DNA from: Mycoplasmatota bacterium
Lineage (GTDB): Bacteria; Bacillota_I; Bacilli_A; Izemoplasmatales; Izemoplasmataceae
Direction: 5' to 3'
Assembly (NCBI GenBank): GCA_030595255.1
Contig: JAUVDP010000011.1
Span: forward strand, 1-33,772
DNA: 33,772 nucleotides
The notes beneath the pieces were generated by a model. That model did no database searches and was not told the DNA's origin. It saw only the letters and a list, made by a program, of their open reading frames with translations. Made by a program: the position numbers and the translations under genes. Below are positions 1 to 12,340 of the stretch, piece by piece. The stretch's first letter is position 1. Each line of letters starts with the position of its first letter.

Positions 1-34
1 TATCAAACTCTAATATCTCTATATCAAAATGCAT
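1..34 (-). CDS. 5' end of a minus-strand gene cut by the window edge; possibly mutS2
   Basis: Reading leftwards from an ATG at 34-32 gives 11 codons (MHFDIEILEFD) before the window ends. A good ribosome binding site (AGGAGTGAT) lies just upstream, and an extended -10 box further upstream, so this is a real gene start. The ILEFD ending resembles the N-terminus of MutS2 proteins, which usually have a LEFxKI-type motif there, and mutS2 lies near rnhC in several Bacilli. Eleven residues are too few for a firm name; the identity is an inference. Confidence 0.45.
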   Translation of the reverse strand, partial: MHFDIEILEFD

Positions 35-55
35 ATTATCACTCCTAGCAATACT

Positions 56-64
56 ATTTTATCA
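56..64 (-). promoter_or_regulatory. Extended -10 promoter for the truncated leftmost gene
   Basis: On the minus strand the sequence reads TGATAAAAT, that is TGN followed by a near-consensus -10 box, about 20 bases before the ribosome binding site of the leftmost gene. No convincing -35 is present. It faces away from the rnhC promoter. Confidence 0.4.
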
Positions 65-71
65 AATATTA

Positions 72-80
72 TGTTAAAAT
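72..80 (+). promoter_or_regulatory. Extended -10 promoter for rnhC
   Basis: TGTTAAAAT (TGN plus TAAAAT) lies about 10 bases upstream of the rnhC Shine-Dalgarno sequence. The -35 region is not recognisable. The rnhC leader would be very short. Confidence 0.4.
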
Positions 81-101
81 AATAGTAGTGAGGTGGTTTT
101 T

Positions 102-1028
102 TTGAACTTTGTCATGAAATTAACAAAAAATGAGACTTTAAAAATTGTAAAGTTTTATCGAGATTATGCTTCAGATTCTAAAAATGAATCTGTCCTTTTC
201 TTTGCGAAAACTGAATTTGTTGCTGTCACTGTTTACTCTTCTAACAAAGTAATGTTTCAAGGGGAAGATGCGATGGCTGAATATAAGATGTGGGTAGCTA
301 TGCTTAATTATATTGACGATACACCTACTAAAAAGCCCTCTACTACTAAGAAAATAGAACAAGTCCAAGACTATTTCTTAGAATCAATTGGTAGTGATGA
401 AGTAGGTAAAGGAGACTTCTTTGGACCTTTAGTAGTTTGTGCTGCTTATTTAGATTATCGTAATTTAGATTTTATAAAAGAACTTGGAATTGATGACTCT
501 AAAAAACTAACAGATGAAAAAATATTAGTTTTAGGAGAACAACTTGCTAATAAAATAACATATAGTTTATTAACACTTCATAACGAAAAGTTTAATGATT
601 TAACTGAAAAAGGATATAACTTGAATAAACTAAATGCTTATTTACACAATAAAGCTATCTTAAATCTATTAGCTAAACTAAACACAGAACCACCAGTAAT
701 TTTAGATCAATTCGTAAATAAGAACTTATATTTTAACTACTTAAAAGATGAATCTGATATATACAAAGATGTAATATTTAAAGAAAAAGCAGAAAGCAAA
801 CAAGCCTCAGTTGCGATAGCGAGTATTATCGCAAGATATGCCTTCTTAAAGCATTTTGATAAAATTAGTATAGATAGTGGTTTCGACTTGTTAAAAGGAG
901 CCAGTAAAGAGGTAGACCTATTAACTGCGAAAATAATTAAAGCAAAAGGTGAATTATTTTTAAGAAAATATGCGAAGGTTAACTATAAAACTTTAACTAA
1001 AGCAAAAGATATGTTAAAAGATATGTAA
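102..1028 (+). CDS. rnhC: Ribonuclease HIII
   Basis: Endonuclease that cuts the RNA strand of RNA/DNA hybrids, a replication and repair function of the cytosol. The 308-residue product has a TBP-like N-terminal substrate-binding region (about 1-85) followed by a type 2 RNase H catalytic domain opening with SIGSDEVGKGDFFGP, where the Asp-Glu pair near residue 99-100 is the metal-binding DE signature. IDDSKKL follows at about 130, as in the family. The start is set by the ribosome binding site: a GAGGTGG sequence at 90-96 is followed after five T bases by TTG at 102. An in-frame GTG at 93 lies inside that site, and the ATG at 114 is too far away. The frame runs to TAA at 1026-1028. Length is normal for RNase HIII. 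Confidence 0.93.
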   Translation: MNFVMKLTKNETLKIVKFYRDYASDSKNESVLFFAKTEFVAVTVYSSNKVMFQGEDAMAEYKMWVAMLNYIDDTPTKKPSTTKKIEQVQDYFLESIGSDEVGKGDFFGPLVVCAAYLDYRNLDFIKELGIDDSKKLTDEKILVLGEQLANKITYSLLTLHNEKFNDLTEKGYNLNKLNAYLHNKAILNLLAKLNTEPPVILDQFVNKNLYFNYLKDESDIYKDVIFKEKAESKQASVAIASIIARYAFLKHFDKISIDSGFDLLKGASKEVDLLTAKIIKAKGELFLRKYAKVNYKTLTKAKDMLKDM

Positions 1029-1033
1029 TAAGA

Positions 1034-1062
1034 TTGTATTAACTTAATTTGTAATATATAAT
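1034..1062 (+). promoter_or_regulatory. Sigma-A-type promoter of the ferritin gene
   Basis: TTGTAT (1034-1039) and TATAAT (1057-1062) are separated by exactly 17 bases. The expected transcript start is near 1069, which puts the upstream ATG at 1068 at the very edge of the transcript and supports the TTG at 1089 as the real start. I see no Fur-like palindrome over the promoter. Confidence 0.6.
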
Positions 1063-1088
1063 AATTTATGAAAAAGGAGATGATTTTT

Positions 1089-1586
1089 TTGGAGAAACAA
1101 TTAGAAGCAGCAATAAACGAACAACTAAATTTTGAAATTGAATCAGCGCATATATATTTAGCTATGGCTGGATATATCGCTACACTTGGATTAGAAGGTT
1201 TTGAATCATGGTTTATGGTTCAATATGAAGAAGAAATATCACATGCTAGAAAATTTATAGATTATGTAAACGAACGTGGTGGAAGAGTTAATATTAAAGG
1301 ATTTATTGATCCTGAAAATGAATTTAAATCATTATTAGACACTTTAGAAATTTCTTTAAATCATGAAAAAGAAGTTACTAGAAGAATTAATAACTTAATG
1401 AGAATAGCTTATGAAATTCATGATTACGCAGCTATAAGCTTCTTACAATGGTATATCGATGAACAAGTTGAGGAGCTTGCGACGTTTACTAAAGCGATAC
1501 AAGATGTTAAGCTTGTTAAGGACGCAGGGCTTTATATGCTTGATAAAGAGTTCGGTACAAGAGTGTTCGTTCCAATTCCAAAATAA
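1089..1586 (+). CDS. ftnA: Ferritin-like iron storage protein (with an atypical 3' end)
   Basis: Non-haem bacterial ferritin of 165 residues, a four-helix bundle that oxidises Fe2+ and stores the mineral in a 24-subunit shell. Ferroxidase-type residues are in place: E16 in NFEIESAHIYL, E49 and H52 in YEEEISHAR, E93 in NHEKEVT, Q126 and E128-E129 in DEQVEE. AAGGAG at 1074-1079 sits 9 bases before the TTG at 1089, giving the family-typical start MEKQLEAAINEQ; the ATG at 1068 precedes that site. From codon 125 (1461) to the stop, base composition changes: I count about 40% GC by hand, with codons such as GAG, GCG, ACG, CTT and GGG, against the A/T-ending codons before it. A second copy of this 3' end, about 26% GC, lies at 2277-2402. 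The gene ends in a strong bidirectional terminator. Confidence 0.93.
   Translation: MEKQLEAAINEQLNFEIESAHIYLAMAGYIATLGLEGFESWFMVQYEEEISHARKFIDYVNERGGRVNIKGFIDPENEFKSLLDTLEISLNHEKEVTRRINNLMRIAYEIHDYAAISFLQWYIDEQVEELATFTKAIQDVKLVKDAGLYMLDKEFGTRVFVPIPK
1461..1475 (+). repeat. Left copy of the direct repeat at the ferritin tail junction
   Basis: GAACAAGTTGAGGAG encodes EQVEE (codons 125-129) of the intact ferritin. The copy at 2277-2291 differs at one base (GAAGAG instead of GAGGAG). The change in base composition inside the ferritin gene begins at this point. It may mark a recombination junction. Confidence 0.6.
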
Positions 1587-1599
1587 TAAATAATTGTTC

Positions 1600-1634
1600 A
1601 AAAAAAACGACTCTATTCGATAGAGTCGTTTTTT
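1600..1634. terminator. Bidirectional terminator between ftnA and the 60-residue membrane gene
   Basis: Perfect 10-bp stem ACGACTCTAT / ATAGAGTCGT (1607-1616 and 1620-1629) with a TCG loop, extended by an A run on the left and a T run on the right, so it works on both strands. The last codons and the stop (1613-1615) of the minus-strand gene lie inside the stem. Confidence 0.85.
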
Positions 1635-1795
1635 GTTTTTTGGTTGATAATTATTCCAACAAAATTCATAATCAAAGCAAACCACATAAAAAATACAATT
1701 ATCTCTGGTATTGCCTTCCTAAATATTAAATGAAAAATTATTACAATGAATAATATTAAATAAAGACCCATTGCACCTTTTGAAAAAATATGCAT
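1613..1795 (-). CDS. Small membrane protein, 60 residues
   Basis: Not recognised. The product has two hydrophobic segments (about 8-27 and 30-51) separated by a short charged turn (RKAIPE), then a polar tail (NQKTKNDSIE), so it is probably a two-span membrane hairpin. Its start ATG is preceded by a strong site (AAAGGGGTGTGATG), which argues for a real gene despite its size. It lies 34 bases downstream of the zinc-ribbon membrane gene and was probably transcribed with it. Its last codons and stop lie inside the shared terminator. It sits between the two ferritin tails and could have arrived with the current tail. No function is offered. Confidence 0.6.
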   Translation of the reverse strand: MHIFSKGAMGLYLILFIVIIFHLIFRKAIPEIIVFFMWFALIMNFVGIIINQKTKNDSIE

Positions 1796-1829
1796 TTACA
1801 TCACACCCCTTTTAATTATGTTTAATAAC

Positions 1830-2114
1830 TTATCTTACTTCATATGGAATTAGTAATAATTGAATAACCGCCATTATAATACCTGACGATAACAAGATAA
1901 CAGTAAATCTTAATATATTTTTATCAATAGGTACATTTAATACAAATAGAACAATAACAAATATAAAGTAGGCTATACTAATAGACGCTGTCCATTTTTT
2001 TGAGCCCCCAAGTTTTGAGTTGCAATTTTCACATTCCATTGTTCTTGTTGACGATAGAAATTTAATGTTCATTGCTTTTATAGTTTTCTTGTTGCAATTT
2101 GGACATTTCCTCAT
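1830..2114 (-). CDS. Zinc-ribbon membrane protein, 94 residues
   Basis: The N-terminus carries two CxxC pairs, CPNC at 4-7 and CENC at 28-31, about 20 residues apart, a typical short zinc ribbon. Two hydrophobic segments follow (about 45-62 and 68-90) with PIDKN between them. The arrangement suggests a small two-span membrane protein with a cytosolic metal-binding head; the partner is unknown. A clear ribosome binding site (AAGGAGAGG) precedes the ATG, and an extended -10 box lies at 2146-2154. It is the first gene of a two-gene unit with the 60-residue protein. Similar zinc-ribbon/membrane proteins without assigned function are common in Bacillota. Confidence 0.65.
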   Translation of the reverse strand: MRKCPNCNKKTIKAMNIKFLSSTRTMECENCNSKLGGSKKWTASISIAYFIFVIVLFVLNVPIDKNILRFTVILLSSGIIMAVIQLLLIPYEVR

Positions 2115-2145
2115 AAGTATCCCTCTCCTTTTTATACATAAACAT

Positions 2146-2154
2146 ATTATACCA
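2146..2154 (-). promoter_or_regulatory. Extended -10 promoter of the zinc-ribbon membrane gene
   Basis: Minus strand reads TGGTATAAT, a perfect -10 with TGN extension, about 20 bases before the AAGGAG site. No good -35 is seen. Confidence 0.55.
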
Positions 2155-2270
2155 TAAGAATGAAATTATATATATTTTTTTGTTTCAATGGTTTACTTGC
2201 AACAGATTGAGACAAACTGAAACAAACTTTGCTTAGTAAAGCCGTTTGTCCTTCTCCAATTAGTACCTCA

Positions 2271-2402
2271 GTCTACGAACAAGTTGAAGAGGAAGATAAT
2301 TTCACTAAACTAATTGATAAAGTTAAATTAGTAAAAGATGCTGGTTTATATCATTTAGATAAAGAAGTTGGAACTAGAGTATTTGTACCAATTCCTAAAT
2401 AA
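2271..2402 (+). pseudogene. Displaced ferritin 3' end (remnant)
   Basis: The frame 2271-2402 translates as VYEQVEEEDNFTK... ending DKEVGTRVFVPIPK and TAA. From 2277, 33 of 41 residues match the C-terminus of the intact ferritin without a gap, yet most codons differ synonymously. There is no start codon, ribosome binding site or ferritin body upstream. The EQVEEE form is closer to common ferritins than the EQVEEL of the intact gene. Hand-counted GC is about 26%, in line with its surroundings, against about 40% for the attached tail. It looks like the original end of the gene, or of a second ferritin, cut off from its body. A terminator follows at 2443. Confidence 0.85.
2277..2291 (+). repeat. 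Right copy of the direct repeat at the ferritin tail junction
   Basis: GAACAAGTTGAAGAG, 14 of 15 bases identical to 1461-1475. It starts the displaced ferritin tail. The two copies are 816 bases apart and enclose the current ferritin tail, a terminator and two minus-strand membrane genes. Confidence 0.6.
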
Positions 2403-2442
2403 TACTTTATTAACGATAGGGACTAAATAATTAATTGTTAAC

Positions 2443-2470
2443 AAAAAAGACGAATAATCGTCTTTTTTTT
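2443..2470. terminator. Bidirectional terminator after the ferritin remnant
   Basis: Stem AAAAAAGACGA / TCGTCTTTTTT with loop ATAA (2443-2453, 2458-2468) followed by T bases. On the plus strand it would have ended the old ferritin transcript; on the minus strand it serves the 72-residue gene whose stop is at 2472-2474. Confidence 0.8.
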
Positions 2471-2471
2471 A

Positions 2472-2690
2472 TTATGTTTTATTTATATCTACGGGAATAA
2501 CGTCTCTAAAAAACTGTAATATGATAACTATTAAAAACATTGTAATAGATACTCCTATCAATTTAATAATAACAAGTAAATCTTTATAATATCCGTATTG
2601 ACTATCATAAAACATTGAAATTAGCAGAAGAATTATAGCAACACAAAAGAATAAAAATTGTAGCACACTTATTGTATCTGTTTTACTCAC
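2472..2690 (-). CDS. Small membrane protein, 72 residues
   Basis: Not recognised. Two long hydrophobic segments (about 8-26 and 38-60) are joined by a tyrosine-rich, acidic loop (FYDSQYGYYKD); the C-terminus is polar. The start is a GTG at 2690-2688, placed 8 bases after GAAGGAG; the longer frame that begins further upstream would start before the likely promoter (TGTTATAAT at 2712-2720). It faces the ferritin remnant and shares its terminator. Like the two other small membrane genes here it has no visible relation to ferritin. Confidence 0.55.
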   Translation of the reverse strand: MSKTDTISVLQFLFFCVAIILLLISMFYDSQYGYYKDLLVIIKLIGVSITMFLIVIILQFFRDVIPVDINKT

Positions 2691-2711
2691 ATTCTCATCT
2701 CCTTCGTTAAT

Positions 2712-2720
2712 ATTATAACA
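2712..2720 (-). promoter_or_regulatory. Extended -10 promoter of the 72-residue membrane gene
   Basis: Minus strand TGTTATAAT, 20 or so bases before the GTG start. No clear -35. Confidence 0.5.
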
Positions 2721-2778
2721 TAGTAAGATTCTATTATAGTAATTCTTTAATATCAATTTCTTGGTAGTTTAGCAAACT

Positions 2779-2806
2779 AAAACGAGATGAAAATTCATCT
2801 CGTTTT
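2779..2806. terminator. Orphan hairpin between divergent genes
   Basis: Perfect 12-bp stem AAAACGAGATGA / TCATCTCGTTTT with a four-base loop, flanked by short A and T runs. It has the form of a bidirectional terminator, but no complete gene ends here: the flanking genes start at 2690 (minus) and 2877 (plus). It may insulate the two promoters or be left over from a lost gene. Confidence 0.6.
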
Positions 2807-2876
2807 CTTATTATAACCATAAAATATCCATATCTTTTTAATATACTAAAAGTATTAAAGACTATGAGGTGTTTAT

Positions 2877-3872
2877 ATGTCGAAAAAATTAAAATTTATT
2901 TTACTTCTACTTTTAAGCTTAACTAGTGTATTCTTTGCGGAAGTAATTTCAGGTAGTATGAAGTTTCCATTGTATGATTTATGGGGTTGGTTTATTGTTA
3001 TACCTCTATATGGTCTTCATACAATAGTTCTTTTATATATTATTACTAAATACACCGATAATAAAAGAGTTCTATTTAGTACTCTCTTCTTCGCAGGTGT
3101 ATTATTTGGACTATATGAAGCTTACCTCACTAAAGTATTATGGGTTGGCTTAAATGATGAACCATTAATCTTTTTAGATATATCAGTAATGGATTTCATT
3201 GTTTTAGTATTCTTATGGCATCCAATTATGTCATTTATAATTCCTTCTCTTGTATTTGAAGGATTTATGACAAATAGTAATAATCTATTCCAAGGGTTAC
3301 CAAATAAAGTTAAGAATTTTGCTATAAAGAAAAAGTTAAGAATTACTTTATTTATATTTATAGGTGCCTTCTTATCATTTAACTCTTTAGGACCTTTAGA
3401 ATTACTTCTATCAGGATTTGGTATGGGATTACCTATCTTATTGATTTATTATTTACTTAGAAAGAAGGATATTCATACTAAATATTCTTTAGAAGAAATA
3501 CTACCAAGTAATAAAGGATTTATTATATGTATTGTATTACTATCAATCATGTATATATCAATGGGACTATTTATTCAAAGAGATGTTTTAACTTTAAATA
3601 ATCAGTTATCAATTTGGGTATTATACATAATCTTTGGATTATTATTCTACTTTAAATTAAGAGGTAATAACTTAGAAGAAGTTGATGAAGTAATTAAAGA
3701 ACCAATAGCTTTTAAATACATGATAATATATTTATTAATTATAGTTATCGCAGGAGTATTATTAGTTACTGTGAATTGGTATTTAGGTTCTCAGTTACTG
3801 TTTATGGTACTAACATGGATCTTCTGGATGTTCCTAGGTCTTGCATTATTATACTATAGCTTATTACATTAA
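2877..3872 (+). CDS. Polytopic membrane protein of unknown function, 331 residues
   Basis: Not recognised. About nine or ten hydrophobic segments cover nearly the whole chain; the first follows an MSKKLK start typical of a positive-inside N-terminus. Polar loops include NNLFQGLPNKVKNF (about 135-148) and KLRGNNLEEVDEVIKEP (about 260-276). GLYEAYLTKVLW near 80 and the F/G-rich stretch FNSLGPLELLLSGFGMG near 168-184 stand out as possible functional motifs. The ATG follows GAGGTG by five bases. It is a single-gene unit with its own terminator. No transporter or enzyme family signature is visible to me. Confidence 0.75.
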   Translation: MSKKLKFILLLLLSLTSVFFAEVISGSMKFPLYDLWGWFIVIPLYGLHTIVLLYIITKYTDNKRVLFSTLFFAGVLFGLYEAYLTKVLWVGLNDEPLIFLDISVMDFIVLVFLWHPIMSFIIPSLVFEGFMTNSNNLFQGLPNKVKNFAIKKKLRITLFIFIGAFLSFNSLGPLELLLSGFGMGLPILLIYYLLRKKDIHTKYSLEEILPSNKGFIICIVLLSIMYISMGLFIQRDVLTLNNQLSIWVLYIIFGLLFYFKLRGNNLEEVDEVIKEPIAFKYMIIYLLIIVIAGVLLVTVNWYLGSQLLFMVLTWIFWMFLGLALLYYSLLH

Positions 3873-3900
3873 AAAAAGACTAAAAAGTCTTTTTTTAATG
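3867..3900 (+). terminator. Terminator of the polytopic membrane gene
   Basis: Perfect 15-bp stem (3867-3881 with 3886-3900) around an AAAA loop; the descending arm contains seven T bases. It overlaps the stop codon of the plus-strand gene and also the end of the relic frame on the minus strand. Confidence 0.75.
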
Positions 3901-4102
3901 TAATTTTTCTAAATTCAATAACAGAACTAGTTGGAACATATACTTCTAAATTGATGTAATACAGGGCGTCTTCTACACCTTCGTGAATAAGCTCATTTTC
4001 ACCGTTTAATACATATTCAATTGATCTATCTTGATTAAATATACTAAATTCTATTCCGTCTAATCCTAATACTTTATATGTTCCAGGTTTTAAAGTAACT
4101 CT
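3869..4102 (-). pseudogene. Startless relic reading frame, about 77 codons
   Basis: Minus-strand frame that stays open from 4102 down to TAA at 3871-3869 and reads like protein (LKPGTYKVLGLDG..., SIEYVLNGENELIHEGVEDA, YVPTSSVIEFRKITLKK). Immediately upstream comes an in-frame TAA (4105-4103), and the only nearby ATG (4117-4115) is cut off by that stop after four codons and has no ribosome binding site. The GTYKV pattern followed by alternating beta-type segments recalls small beta-sandwich repeats of secreted Bacillota proteins, but this is weak. Probably the C-terminal remainder of a gene whose 5' part was deleted, directly behind the yolD stop. Confidence 0.5.
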
Positions 4103-4118
4103 TTAGCAATTAAACATT

Positions 4119-4448
4119 TTATATTATTTCAATATTAATAATCTGTAAGGCTGAAACAAAGGCTTCATCTACAAATATGAGTTTATTATATATATCGGTC
4201 CTTGATATAACTCCTTCTATTTCATAAATCGCACCATCTCTAAAATACTTAATTATCACTTCGTTCTTAAATAAATACGCTACTTCTAGCTTATAGTTTA
4301 GTTCAGATTGTTGATCAATACTTAGTATTGGCATTTCTTTTTTAGTTCTGCCATTTAATAAATCTACAATATGGTCTCCTTGTTCTAATAAAGCATTAAA
4401 CGGCATCCATTTCATCATCTTACGATCATGATATACATAACTAGGCAT
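4119..4448 (-). CDS. yolD: YolD-like protein, partner of the Y-family polymerase
   Basis: 109 residues. The N-terminal DRKMMKWMPFNALLEQ matches the YolD family hallmark (R-G-x-x-K-W-x-P-F-x-x-L-x-E-Q), and the rest is a small beta-rich domain (VIIKYFRDGAIYEIEGVISR...). YolD-like proteins are found beside UvrX/UmuC-type polymerases in Bacillus and its phages and are presumed to assist or control them; the molecular role is not settled. The ATG at 4448 follows AGGTGG; the in-frame GTG at 4457 lies within that site. The start overlaps the end of the polymerase gene by 8 bases, so the two are translationally coupled. Confidence 0.85.
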   Translation of the reverse strand: MPSYVYHDRKMMKWMPFNALLEQGDHIVDLLNGRTKKEMPILSIDQQSELNYKLEVAYLFKNEVIIKYFRDGAIYEIEGVISRTDIYNKLIFVDEAFVSALQIINIEII

Positions 4449-5706
4449 TATGGCCACCTACCATCTTATTACGTGCTTGCACAGTTGAAGAACTGAGTAA
4501 ACTAGAAGCTCGTAATACTGTATTTTTACCATATCTAAACTTAATATTATCTATTGAAGATTGGATTTTATGTTCAGTAATAACTTTATTCATGTCTTTA
4601 AATAGATTTAACTGAATATAGTATTCTTCTACTAAATTAGTAGTACGTATTGTTACTTTCCTAATAGGTGAACCATCATAAAAAGTATCAAATATCTCCA
4701 TACATGAATTGTATATCTCAGCTTCATTATTAGTAGGAAAAGTTAATGTTAACTGTCTATTAAAGCCACCTTTAGTGTCTTTAGAATAAGATATTCCTAA
4801 GTTAATTGTATAAGCTTTTTTCTTTCCTTCTCTTAATCTTTTAGTAACTGTATCAGTCATTTCTAAAATAATTTGAGCAATGTCATCACCATAATAATCA
4901 TGAAACAGTGTTTGTCCCATTCCATAACTTTTATTTACTGGTTTGTAGGCTAATTTTTCACTAATAATAGACATATCAATTCCATGACTATGGTAATAGA
5001 GTTCTGCACCCATTATTCCGTAAAACTTTACAAGTCGTTCTAAAGGATAATGTGCTAAGTCTCCTACTGTGTGAATTCCTAGTCTATTTAGATTACGTTC
5101 CATATTAATTCCAATACCCCATATTTTAGATAATGGAGTAATAGGCCATAGCTTATAAGGTATATCAGAGTAGTCCCAGTTAGCTATAAATGTAGGTGAC
5201 TTTTTACTTTCAATATCAAGAGCGAGTTTACTCATTAACATGTTTGGTCCTATCCCACAAGTCGCTGGTATTTTGGTAGATAGTAAGATGTCTTTAAGAA
5301 TCATCTCAGCTATCTCTTCAGATGTTTTTTGATAATAACTAGTGTAACTGGTCAAATCAAGAAAGACCTCATCTACTGAATAAATATGCATATCTTCAAA
5401 AGATACATACTTTAGGTAAATTTCAATAATTCTTGTTGAGAACTCTAAGTACTTCTGCATTCTAGGTTTTGCGAAGATAATTGAAGGGTCATCAGGTAAC
5501 TCATAAACTCGGCATCTCCCTTTAACACCTCTTAATTTCAAGTAAGGAGTAACTGCAAGTACAACACTTCCATTTGAACGTGATCTATCTGCGACTACTA
5601 AAGGTGTAGTAAACGGATTAAGACCTCTTAAAGCGCATTCTACAGACGCATAAAAACTTTTTAAGTCTATGCATATAATTTCTCTATGTAGTTTTAATTC
5701 TTCCAT
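4441..5706 (-). CDS. Y-family DNA polymerase, UvrX/UmuC type
   Basis: Translesion polymerase of 421 residues. Catalytic carboxylates are visible: D14 in IDLKSFYASVE (motif I with steric-gate region) and D112-E113 in YSVDEVFLDLT (motif III). A helix-hairpin-helix-like stretch follows (IWGIGINMERNLNRLGIHTVGDL, around 195-215), then a little-finger domain with repeated beta strands. VVLAVTPYLKLRGVKG is characteristic of the UvrX/YqjW branch. The start has an excellent site (AAGGAGGTG, 8 bases before ATG). No LexA/DinR operator of the CGAAC-N4-GTTCG type overlaps its promoter, so SOS control is not apparent. It is co-transcribed with yolD. Confidence 0.93.
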   Translation of the reverse strand: MEELKLHREIICIDLKSFYASVECALRGLNPFTTPLVVADRSRSNGSVVLAVTPYLKLRGVKGRCRVYELPDDPSIIFAKPRMQKYLEFSTRIIEIYLKYVSFEDMHIYSVDEVFLDLTSYTSYYQKTSEEIAEMILKDILLSTKIPATCGIGPNMLMSKLALDIESKKSPTFIANWDYSDIPYKLWPITPLSKIWGIGINMERNLNRLGIHTVGDLAHYPLERLVKFYGIMGAELYYHSHGIDMSIISEKLAYKPVNKSYGMGQTLFHDYYGDDIAQIILEMTDTVTKRLREGKKKAYTINLGISYSKDTKGGFNRQLTLTFPTNNEAEIYNSCMEIFDTFYDGSPIRKVTIRTTNLVEEYYIQLNLFKDMNKVITEHKIQSSIDNIKFRYGKNTVLRASSLLSSSTVQARNKMVGGHNA

Positions 5707-11854: not shown

Positions 11855-12340
11855 CTACTTTATATTTTTATAACTTTCTAAATCGACATGGCAGTAGCCA
11901 TGTTTATTTTTGTTTAAATAATCTTGATGATACTCTTCAGCAATAAAGAATTCAAGATTGGTTTTTAGTTCAATAACAATAGCTTTTTGATATTCATTTT
12001 GTCTAATATTTATATAGCTATGAATAAAATCAAGCATCTCAGCACTATAGTTATAAATCCCAGTACGATACTGAATGCCTTTATCATTACCTTGTTTATT
12101 AATTAATGTTGGATCAATAATATTAAAAAGGTGATCTAGTAATTTCTTAAATGAAATTACATCTTCATCAAATTTAATATATACAGCTTCAGCGTGCCCA
12201 CTTGCGTTACATACTTCTTCATAACTAGTCTGCCCTTCACCCGCAATATATCCAACCTCTGTGTTAGTTACACCCTCTAATTGTTTAAAATAAGCTTCTA
12301 CTCCCCAAAAACATCCACCTGCGAATACGATTGATTTCAT
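11855..12340 (-). CDS. msrA: Peptide methionine sulfoxide reductase A
   Basis: Reduces methionine-S-sulfoxide in proteins and free methionine. 161 residues with the catalytic GGCFWG (Cys 10), GHAEAV and YHQDYL near the C-terminus, and a further Cys in KHGYCHVD near 150. GGAGG 8 bases before the ATG at 12340 sets the start; the TTG at 12355 is within the site. There is no fused or adjacent msrB. Confidence 0.95.
   Translation of the reverse strand: MKSIVFAGGCFWGVEAYFKQLEGVTNTEVGYIAGEGQTSYEEVCNASGHAEAVYIKFDEDVISFKKLLDHLFNIIDPTLINKQGNDKGIQYRTGIYNYSAEMLDFIHSYINIRQNEYQKAIVIELKTNLEFFIAEEYHQDYLNKNKHGYCHVDLESYKNIK

Follow-up and report, generated by a model that had tools for sequence, protein, structure and literature searches.

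A ferritin gene with two 3' ends

Why should an intact ferritin gene be followed by a second copy of its own 3' end, and which of the two ends did the gene originally have? The question is raised by the window analyzed here, the whole stretch of 33,772 nucleotides that is contig C23 of the draft genome of an uncultured Izemoplasma-type bacterium (1.6 Mb, 88 contigs, 89.7% complete, 2.76% contamination). The order along the contig is RNase HIII, ferritin, small minus-strand ORFs, and a gene of 331 aa. The ferritin gene is intact from TTG 1089 to 1586 and matches PF00210 as a whole gene (E 6e-38). Its TTG lies nine bases behind AAGGAG, and an equivalent start is found in the genomes G004 (TTG) and G005 (ATG). 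The mechanical ORF listing counts the gene from ATG 1068, while codons are numbered here from TTG 1089, and with this translation the initial annotation's placement of codon 125 at position 1461 holds. The features of the locus are as follows.

1089..1460, plus strand: native ferritin body, codons 1-124, from the TTG start (the first in-frame ATG is 1068)
1461..1586, plus strand: tail A, divergent replacement 3' end of ferritin, codons 125-165 and stop, 126 bp
1461..1471, plus strand: left copy of the common core GAACAAGTTGA, from sequence comparison
1602..1634, no strand: terminator-like hairpin after tail A, 15-nt arms, 100% complementary, resembling the hairpin behind the G005 ferritin
1613..1795, minus strand: hydrophobic ORF of 60 aa, payload, from the ORF listing
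1830..2114, minus strand: ORF of 94 aa, payload, with a CxxC zinc-ribbon-like N-terminus and hydrophobic segments as read from the sequence
2115..2276, no strand: right end of the insert, ferritin-body similarity not detected
2277..2287, plus strand: right copy of the common core GAACAAGTTGA, from sequence comparison
2277..2402, plus strand: tail B, original ferritin 3' end, orphaned, frame open to the stop
From TTG 2229: ORF spanning tail B, a mechanical call only
2403..2468, no strand: probably native 3' UTR and terminator-like hairpin (arms 2443-2453/2458-2468)
2472..2756, minus strand: hydrophobic ORF, 94 aa from TTG, shorter start possible
2877..3872, plus strand: 331-aa gene, immediately after ferritin in HR2, 94.3% DNA identity to HR2

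The first 15 bases are GAACAAGTTGAGGAG in tail A and GAACAAGTTGAAGAG in tail B, with one mismatch, and the 11 bases GAACAAGTTGA are the sole sequence common to both junctions before the first difference. Over 41 codons the two tails have 14 identical codons, 19 synonymous differences and 8 residue changes, which leaves 33/41 residues identical, and neither tail contains a frame break. The second ferritin 3' end that the initial annotation had described at 2277 is thereby confirmed. Tail A and tail B retrieve each other by tblastn (E 8e-17, 31 loci), and full-length ferritin retrieves tail B in a search of the whole genome with an E of 1.4e-13, which excludes chance similarity. Between the tails pS is 0.87, a synonymous distance beyond correction, and pN is 0.19. 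Both tails thus show purifying selection and were long selected as protein, in line with the earlier proposal that both had evolved as working protein before the event.

The uninterrupted gene in relatives

A relative in which the ferritin body continues directly into the 2277-2402 sequence had been suggested as the arrangement to look for, and it is found in the nearest relative in the collection, Ca. Izimaplasma HR2 (G001, contig JRFF01000047.1). There the body runs straight into the tail-B sequence without 1461-2276, and the counterparts of window positions 1-1460 and 2277-2402 are contiguous. The body is identical to that of HR2 at 386/393 bases (98.2%, counted from 1068) and tail B to the HR2 ferritin tail at 118/126 bases (93.7%); for the neighboring RNase HIII and 331-aa genes the identities are 86.6% and 94.3%. 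The empty site in HR2 shows that 1461-2276 was inserted and that the ferritin gene once ended in the orphan at 2277-2402, as the initial annotation had proposed. We consider it very probable that these 816 bp are a derived insertion at ferritin codon 125 with replacement of the tail.

Other relatives agree with the HR2 arrangement. Twenty-three tails were read as DNA, three from this genome's bin (A, B, and C, the last on contig C1) and 20 from other genomes, and 18 of these 20 ferritins, HR2 included, are uninterrupted through codon 125. The other two are cut by contig ends, G044 on a contig that begins 27 bases ahead of the tail and G002 on one that stops within it. An order-wide search gave a ferritin match in 43 of 90 genomes, own included, and the tail-only matches in it were the two of this genome and the contig-edge fragment of G044; G071 matched only to residue 150, where its contig ends. 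The relatives read as DNA do not share the present arrangement; its presence in all of them had been named by the initial annotation as an outcome that would speak against an insertion. A second such outcome, a remnant that groups with a separate second ferritin, did not occur either: no separate full-length ferritin with tail B was found in this genome (89.7% complete), and the sole other PF00210 match is distant and, at 27.5 bits, barely above the cut-off.

The contig of G002 (L110, G002:C62, 1-26) ends 26 bases into the ferritin tail, directly behind the core, which could reflect variation at the ferritin site in that population, or chance. Within our window, a second difference from HR2 lies at 2403-2764, where 362 bp (UTR, hairpin, and minus-strand hydrophobic ORF) have no HR2 counterpart. 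The segment 2403-2468 has short matches behind the G004 ferritin (38 nt, 84%) and behind tail C (48 nt, 85%). Since the UTR resembles those of G004 and C1, HR2 more probably lost this stretch than our window gained it by a further insertion.

Divergence and origin of the replacement end

Tail A differs from HR2 at 44/123 bases, versus 7/393 for the body (Fisher p 1.3e-23), and is 69% identical to the HR2 tail. Judged by its sequence, tail A is foreign to the ferritin body. Among the best 75 aligned rows only tail A reads EQVEEL, while the 74 others, including the row of body plus tail B, read EQVEEE. The last 72 nt of tail A together with 48 nt past the stop (insert positions 55-174) are 80% identical to G005, so tail A is genus-like. 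Neither the 90 genomes of the order nor a single scan of named genome contigs yielded a donor of tail A.

Separate trees of body and tail had been proposed as a check. In them the body is sister to HR2 with support of 100/100 and tail B falls with HR2 (67/96, not starred). Tail A has a long branch and groups only weakly, with G011 and G036 (75/79, flagged for long-branch effects), and tail C groups with G004 (84/73). An AU test on the 123-column tail alignment did not reject a clade of tail A, tail B and HR2 (p 0.23), and a clade of tail A and tail B had p 0.15. The trees covered a set without G048 (51% GC), G002, G044, L029, L035 and distant phyla. Because the AU test leaves the clade of tail A, tail B and HR2 standing, the case for a foreign tail rests on pairwise divergence and not on the tree.

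GC is 39.7% in tail A (about 40% had been estimated by hand count), 26.2% in tail B (earlier given as about 26%), and 28.0% in the body (1068-1460), and 1.2% of 126-bp windows in the 33.8-kb window reach a GC content at least as high as that of tail A. The remainder of the insert (1587-2276) has 27.2%, which is host-like, and its two ORFs have 24.6 and 28.1%. The composition break claimed at 1461 thus stands for the 126 bp of tail A but not for the rest of the insert. Composition by itself would not prove foreign origin. The earlier suggestion that the whole segment came from a related genome is supported only in part: tail A is homologous to tails of the genus, but no donor was found, the payload is host-like in composition, and the AU test at p 0.23 leaves the tail A, tail B and HR2 clade in place.

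Contents of the insert

Behind tail A, the insert contains the terminator and two minus-strand genes noted before, seen here as the hairpin at 1602-1634 and the ORFs of 60 aa and 94 aa. The 60-aa ORF had no Pfam or PHROGs match, and tblastn over the loci used retrieved only itself. The 94-aa ORF has matches in 4/90 genomes of the order, own included, the others at 30-32% identity and the best of them in G079 (31%, E 9.6e-15). At the DNA level, in a search that scored at most 6 candidates per genome, 1587-2276 gave only short matches of 25-79 bases in 8/90 genomes, own genome apart. An Rfam search of 1-4200 at the gathering threshold returned nothing. No recombinase was found in 1461-2276 and no integrase match in the ferritin loci searched, in agreement with the lack of an integrase reported by the initial annotation.

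The mobility of the insert is unproven. Window positions 1000-2800 and tail A had no match in plasmids, tail B had none in phages, and the tail alignment was without a relative among viral contigs. The idea that an orphan ferritin tail is carried by viruses, phages or plasmids was set aside, since the pattern and tail searches showed no such carrier. A 20-base pattern occurred in 30 viral loci, 28 of which were without ferritin-like context by eye. In the two others, both IMG/VR viral contigs, a complete ferritin gene with an EQVEEED stretch is present, L126 at 1746-2279 on the minus strand and L134 at 4506-4979 on the plus strand; with 178 and 158 codons and PF00210 E-values of 2.8e-25 and 5.3e-21 these are whole genes and not tails.

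The region behind ferritin varies among the genomes of the family, mostly by minus-strand genes of differing sizes, with a conserved gene of the Y-family-polymerase type (named from sequence) further downstream in seven other loci. This variability suggests that recombination here is favored by any route. In the library searched, no paper contained both Izemoplasma and ferritin, and among the titles listed no ferritin gene-end element was recognized. The predicted chimeric ferritin keeps the PF00210 fold match and the conserved EQVEE segment, and it can be aligned with solved ferritins from residue 9 to residue 169 of 172.

A second orphan tail on contig C1

Contig C1 of the same bin (L116, 3,994 bp) carries tail C, which is frameshifted, is 91% identical to the G004 tail, and has its start no more than about 9 bp from GAACAAG. 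To its left are an IS110 transposase and a gene for a 60-aa XRE protein that weakly resembles RstR phage repressors (E 7.6e-5, well short of the cut-off). To its right are a 137-aa ORF, with one other weak match in 90 genomes (G005, E 2e-4), the remnant of a second XRE gene, and feoB. One possibility is that C1 shows the right end of a further insertion at this codon whose ferritin body lies off the contig; another is that it carries a ferritin decayed beside feoB. We estimate that two random truncation points over some 500 bp would agree within nine bases in a few per cent of cases. The feoB of C1 shares 86% identity with a further partial feoB on C47 of this bin, so C1 may belong to another strain or species, and tail C is therefore counted as supporting and not decisive.

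Two further comparisons on C1 were discarded. For a decayed ferritin body ahead of tail C, one scoring put 3/7 ferritin bodies at fractions of 0.004, 0.005 and 0.015, but the signal did not survive a best-of-15 null (0.155-0.46). Common right ends of the insert and C1 amount to a gapped match whose fractions run from 0.008 to 0.9 by scoring scheme, mostly non-significant. On the same contig (G000:C1, 1528-2581), two copies of the XRE gene (161 bp, 80% identical, the second the remnant) flank tail C and the 137-aa ORF.

Possible routes of entry at codon 125

The best-fitting reading, to which our analysis gives an even chance, is site-specific entry by crossover between a circle and the gene, following the logic of e14 in icd and with CIME-like content (both compared below). 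The segment would have entered as a small circle by a single crossover inside the 11-base core GAACAAGTTGA, bringing its own gene end (tail A and terminator) beside two small minus-strand genes. Ferritin would stay readable with a new C-terminus and the old end would be displaced 816 bp downstream. The recombinase would have acted in trans, been on a part since lost, or been a host Xer protein. As it encodes no recombinase, the segment would be either a remnant or a CIME-like passenger devoid of an integrase, moved in trans or by an enzyme that it has since lost.

This circle crossover would account for what is seen at the right junction. No ferritin body was detected ahead of tail B: tblastn of the body on 1587-2276 gave a best E of 1.5, and a comparison with the last 80 bases of the insert detected none (null fraction 0.19-0.86), as the initial annotation had noted of the 2277 copy. 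Sharing of the core only, together with the lack of a detected body before tail B, is explained in one step by a crossover between circle and gene, while homologous recombination over a longer shared stretch would have left a copy of the body before tail B. The identity of the core at both junctions, GAACAAGTTGA at 1461 and 2277, is partly explained by conserved coding. Because GAACAAGTTGARGAG encodes the invariant EQVEE, its being conserved does not by itself point to an att site. A transposition that duplicated an 11-bp target was rejected because it leaves unexplained a ferritin tail in exact register at the start of the insert.

Among the alternatives, linear foreign DNA from a ferritin region could have entered by one homologous crossover and one illegitimate join, with microhomology to GAAC at the right junction. 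Homology-facilitated illegitimate recombination has been described in three species with natural competence and during conjugation in E. coli (PMC3240628). It makes a dedicated recombinase unnecessary, and the variable stretch behind ferritin across the family indicates that the spot receives foreign DNA. However, the illegitimate join must hit the exact base of the homologous crossover by chance, with just 11 identical bases at that point, and the same accident would be required for tail C. We regard this route as unlikely, if the most serious of the competitors.

A two-step history is somewhat less probable again. Here a circle or a second ferritin with tail A recombines by homology to give a tandem, and the redundant body before tail B is later deleted. 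Ordinary Campbell integration requires no special enzyme, and tail C could then be a decayed second ferritin near feoB. Against this, the deletion would need an endpoint exactly at codon 125, the frame of tail B is still open though useless there, and neither 1587-2276 nor its last 80 bases retain the trace of a ferritin body that the deleted copy might have left in the searches described above. An assembly or binning artefact that fused the ferritins of two strains is very improbable: the bin is a draft of 88 contigs with 2.76% contamination, and C1 may be foreign, but assembly overlaps are usually longer than the 11-15 bases shared at the junctions, HR2 is matched by the contig on either side of the insert (1-1460 and 2765-3875, where the HR2 contig ends), and the next genes of the contig follow the order of G005.

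Comparison with known elements

The closest parallel to circle entry at a gene end is the prophage e14 of E. coli K-12. In the account of PMC11148124, e14 is inserted in icd after codon 362, resupplies 54 C-terminal residues with two residue changes, leaves a duplicate end, icdC, of 165 bp, and has its own putative integrase gene intE. As described there, e14 resembles the ferritin insert in lying within the 3' part of a protein-coding gene, in bringing a homologous in-frame end that replaces the old one, and in leaving the other end behind as a duplicate. At ferritin we find the uninterrupted target in HR2, the in-frame replacement end, and the original end on the far side. Unlike e14, the ferritin insert has 816 bp and no recombinase, and its replacement end differs at 8/41 residues. 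Because no integrase is encoded by the element, the insert is not classed as an integrative element. Gene-end restoration is known for mobile DNA; what is unusual here is the ferritin target and that no recombination enzyme is aboard.

PMC5704250 uses CIME for an element without integration and transfer genes in which attL and attR are kept. In the terms of that definition the insert resembles a CIME in being without integration and transfer genes, with its ends as candidate att sites only. An integrase-less stretch between tRNA-Arg repeats occurs elsewhere in this genome (see below). Unlike a CIME, it has no integrative element found beside it at ferritin in the loci read. The term was coined for ICE remnants larger than this insert, and in size too the two differ.

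Integron gene cassettes are short units that carry genes for small membrane proteins and are joined through a short core, and the insert is like them in each of these respects. It differs from them in being a single unit, with no significant attC-like fold in 2160-2295 (z -1.67 and -0.47 on the two strands) and no dedicated integron-integrase model over cut-off. Four of the five recombinases of the genome were scanned, the set leaving out L121 (in-frame stop), and all were below the cut-off for TIGR02249 and NF011946. XerD and XerC pass NF040815 (243.2 and 222.4 bits, cut-off 220), a XerA model also described as 'integron integrase'. An integron-like cassette was ruled out on the fold and on the dedicated models.

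Extending circle entry beyond this locus is doubtful. In that extension, ferritin codon 125 (GAACAAGTTGA) might be where a whole family of elements, all below one kilobase and free of integrase, enters the genomes of Izemoplasma-type bacteria, each element carrying the ferritin tail of its previous host, so that the C-terminal part of ferritin and EQVEEE would be exchanged between lineages as a by-product, with tail A (EQVEEL) and tail C (G004-like) as two entries. If circle entry at the present locus is right, it would be a small, clear case in which mobile DNA has given a housekeeping protein a divergent new end. The rewritten end differs at 8/41 residues, including one that is constant across the 74 other rows of the best 75 listed. 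With both the empty and the filled state defined, integrase-less elements of Mollicutes-like genomes could be put to the test at this site. If chance recombination is the true explanation, it is an ordinary, well-preserved exchange of a gene end.

Recombinases elsewhere in the genome

The genome contains five PF00589 matches (XerC, XerD and three of the phage type), none of them on the ferritin contig. No PF00239 serine recombinase matched in this genome, in a search whose control was positive in 10/14 genomes. Two of the three phage-type integrases adjoin tRNA-Arg repeats. On contig C75 (L159) the tRNA-Arg(TCT) gene is at 315-391, with further copies of its 3' half at 5319-5371 and 12146-12200. 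The first copy is followed by an integrase and a rolling-circle Rep, the third by a second integrase, with integrase matches nowhere else on that contig. Between the second and third copies are an ABC transporter and two radical-SAM proteins, with no integrase match, so this genome does contain integrase-less passengers between att-like repeats, a point in favor of circle entry at ferritin. The C75 integrases were rejected as movers of the ferritin insert because the 53-58-bp repeats that they adjoin are the 3' half of tRNA-Arg and not the ferritin core.

Taken by itself, the C75 locus (G000:C75, 315-13151) is a tandem accretion at tRNA-Arg(TCT) with three copies of its 3' half. On another contig (L160, G000:C42, 1331-3632), a phage-type integrase with an in-frame TAG lies beside a HipA-like gene and an XRE-like ORF.
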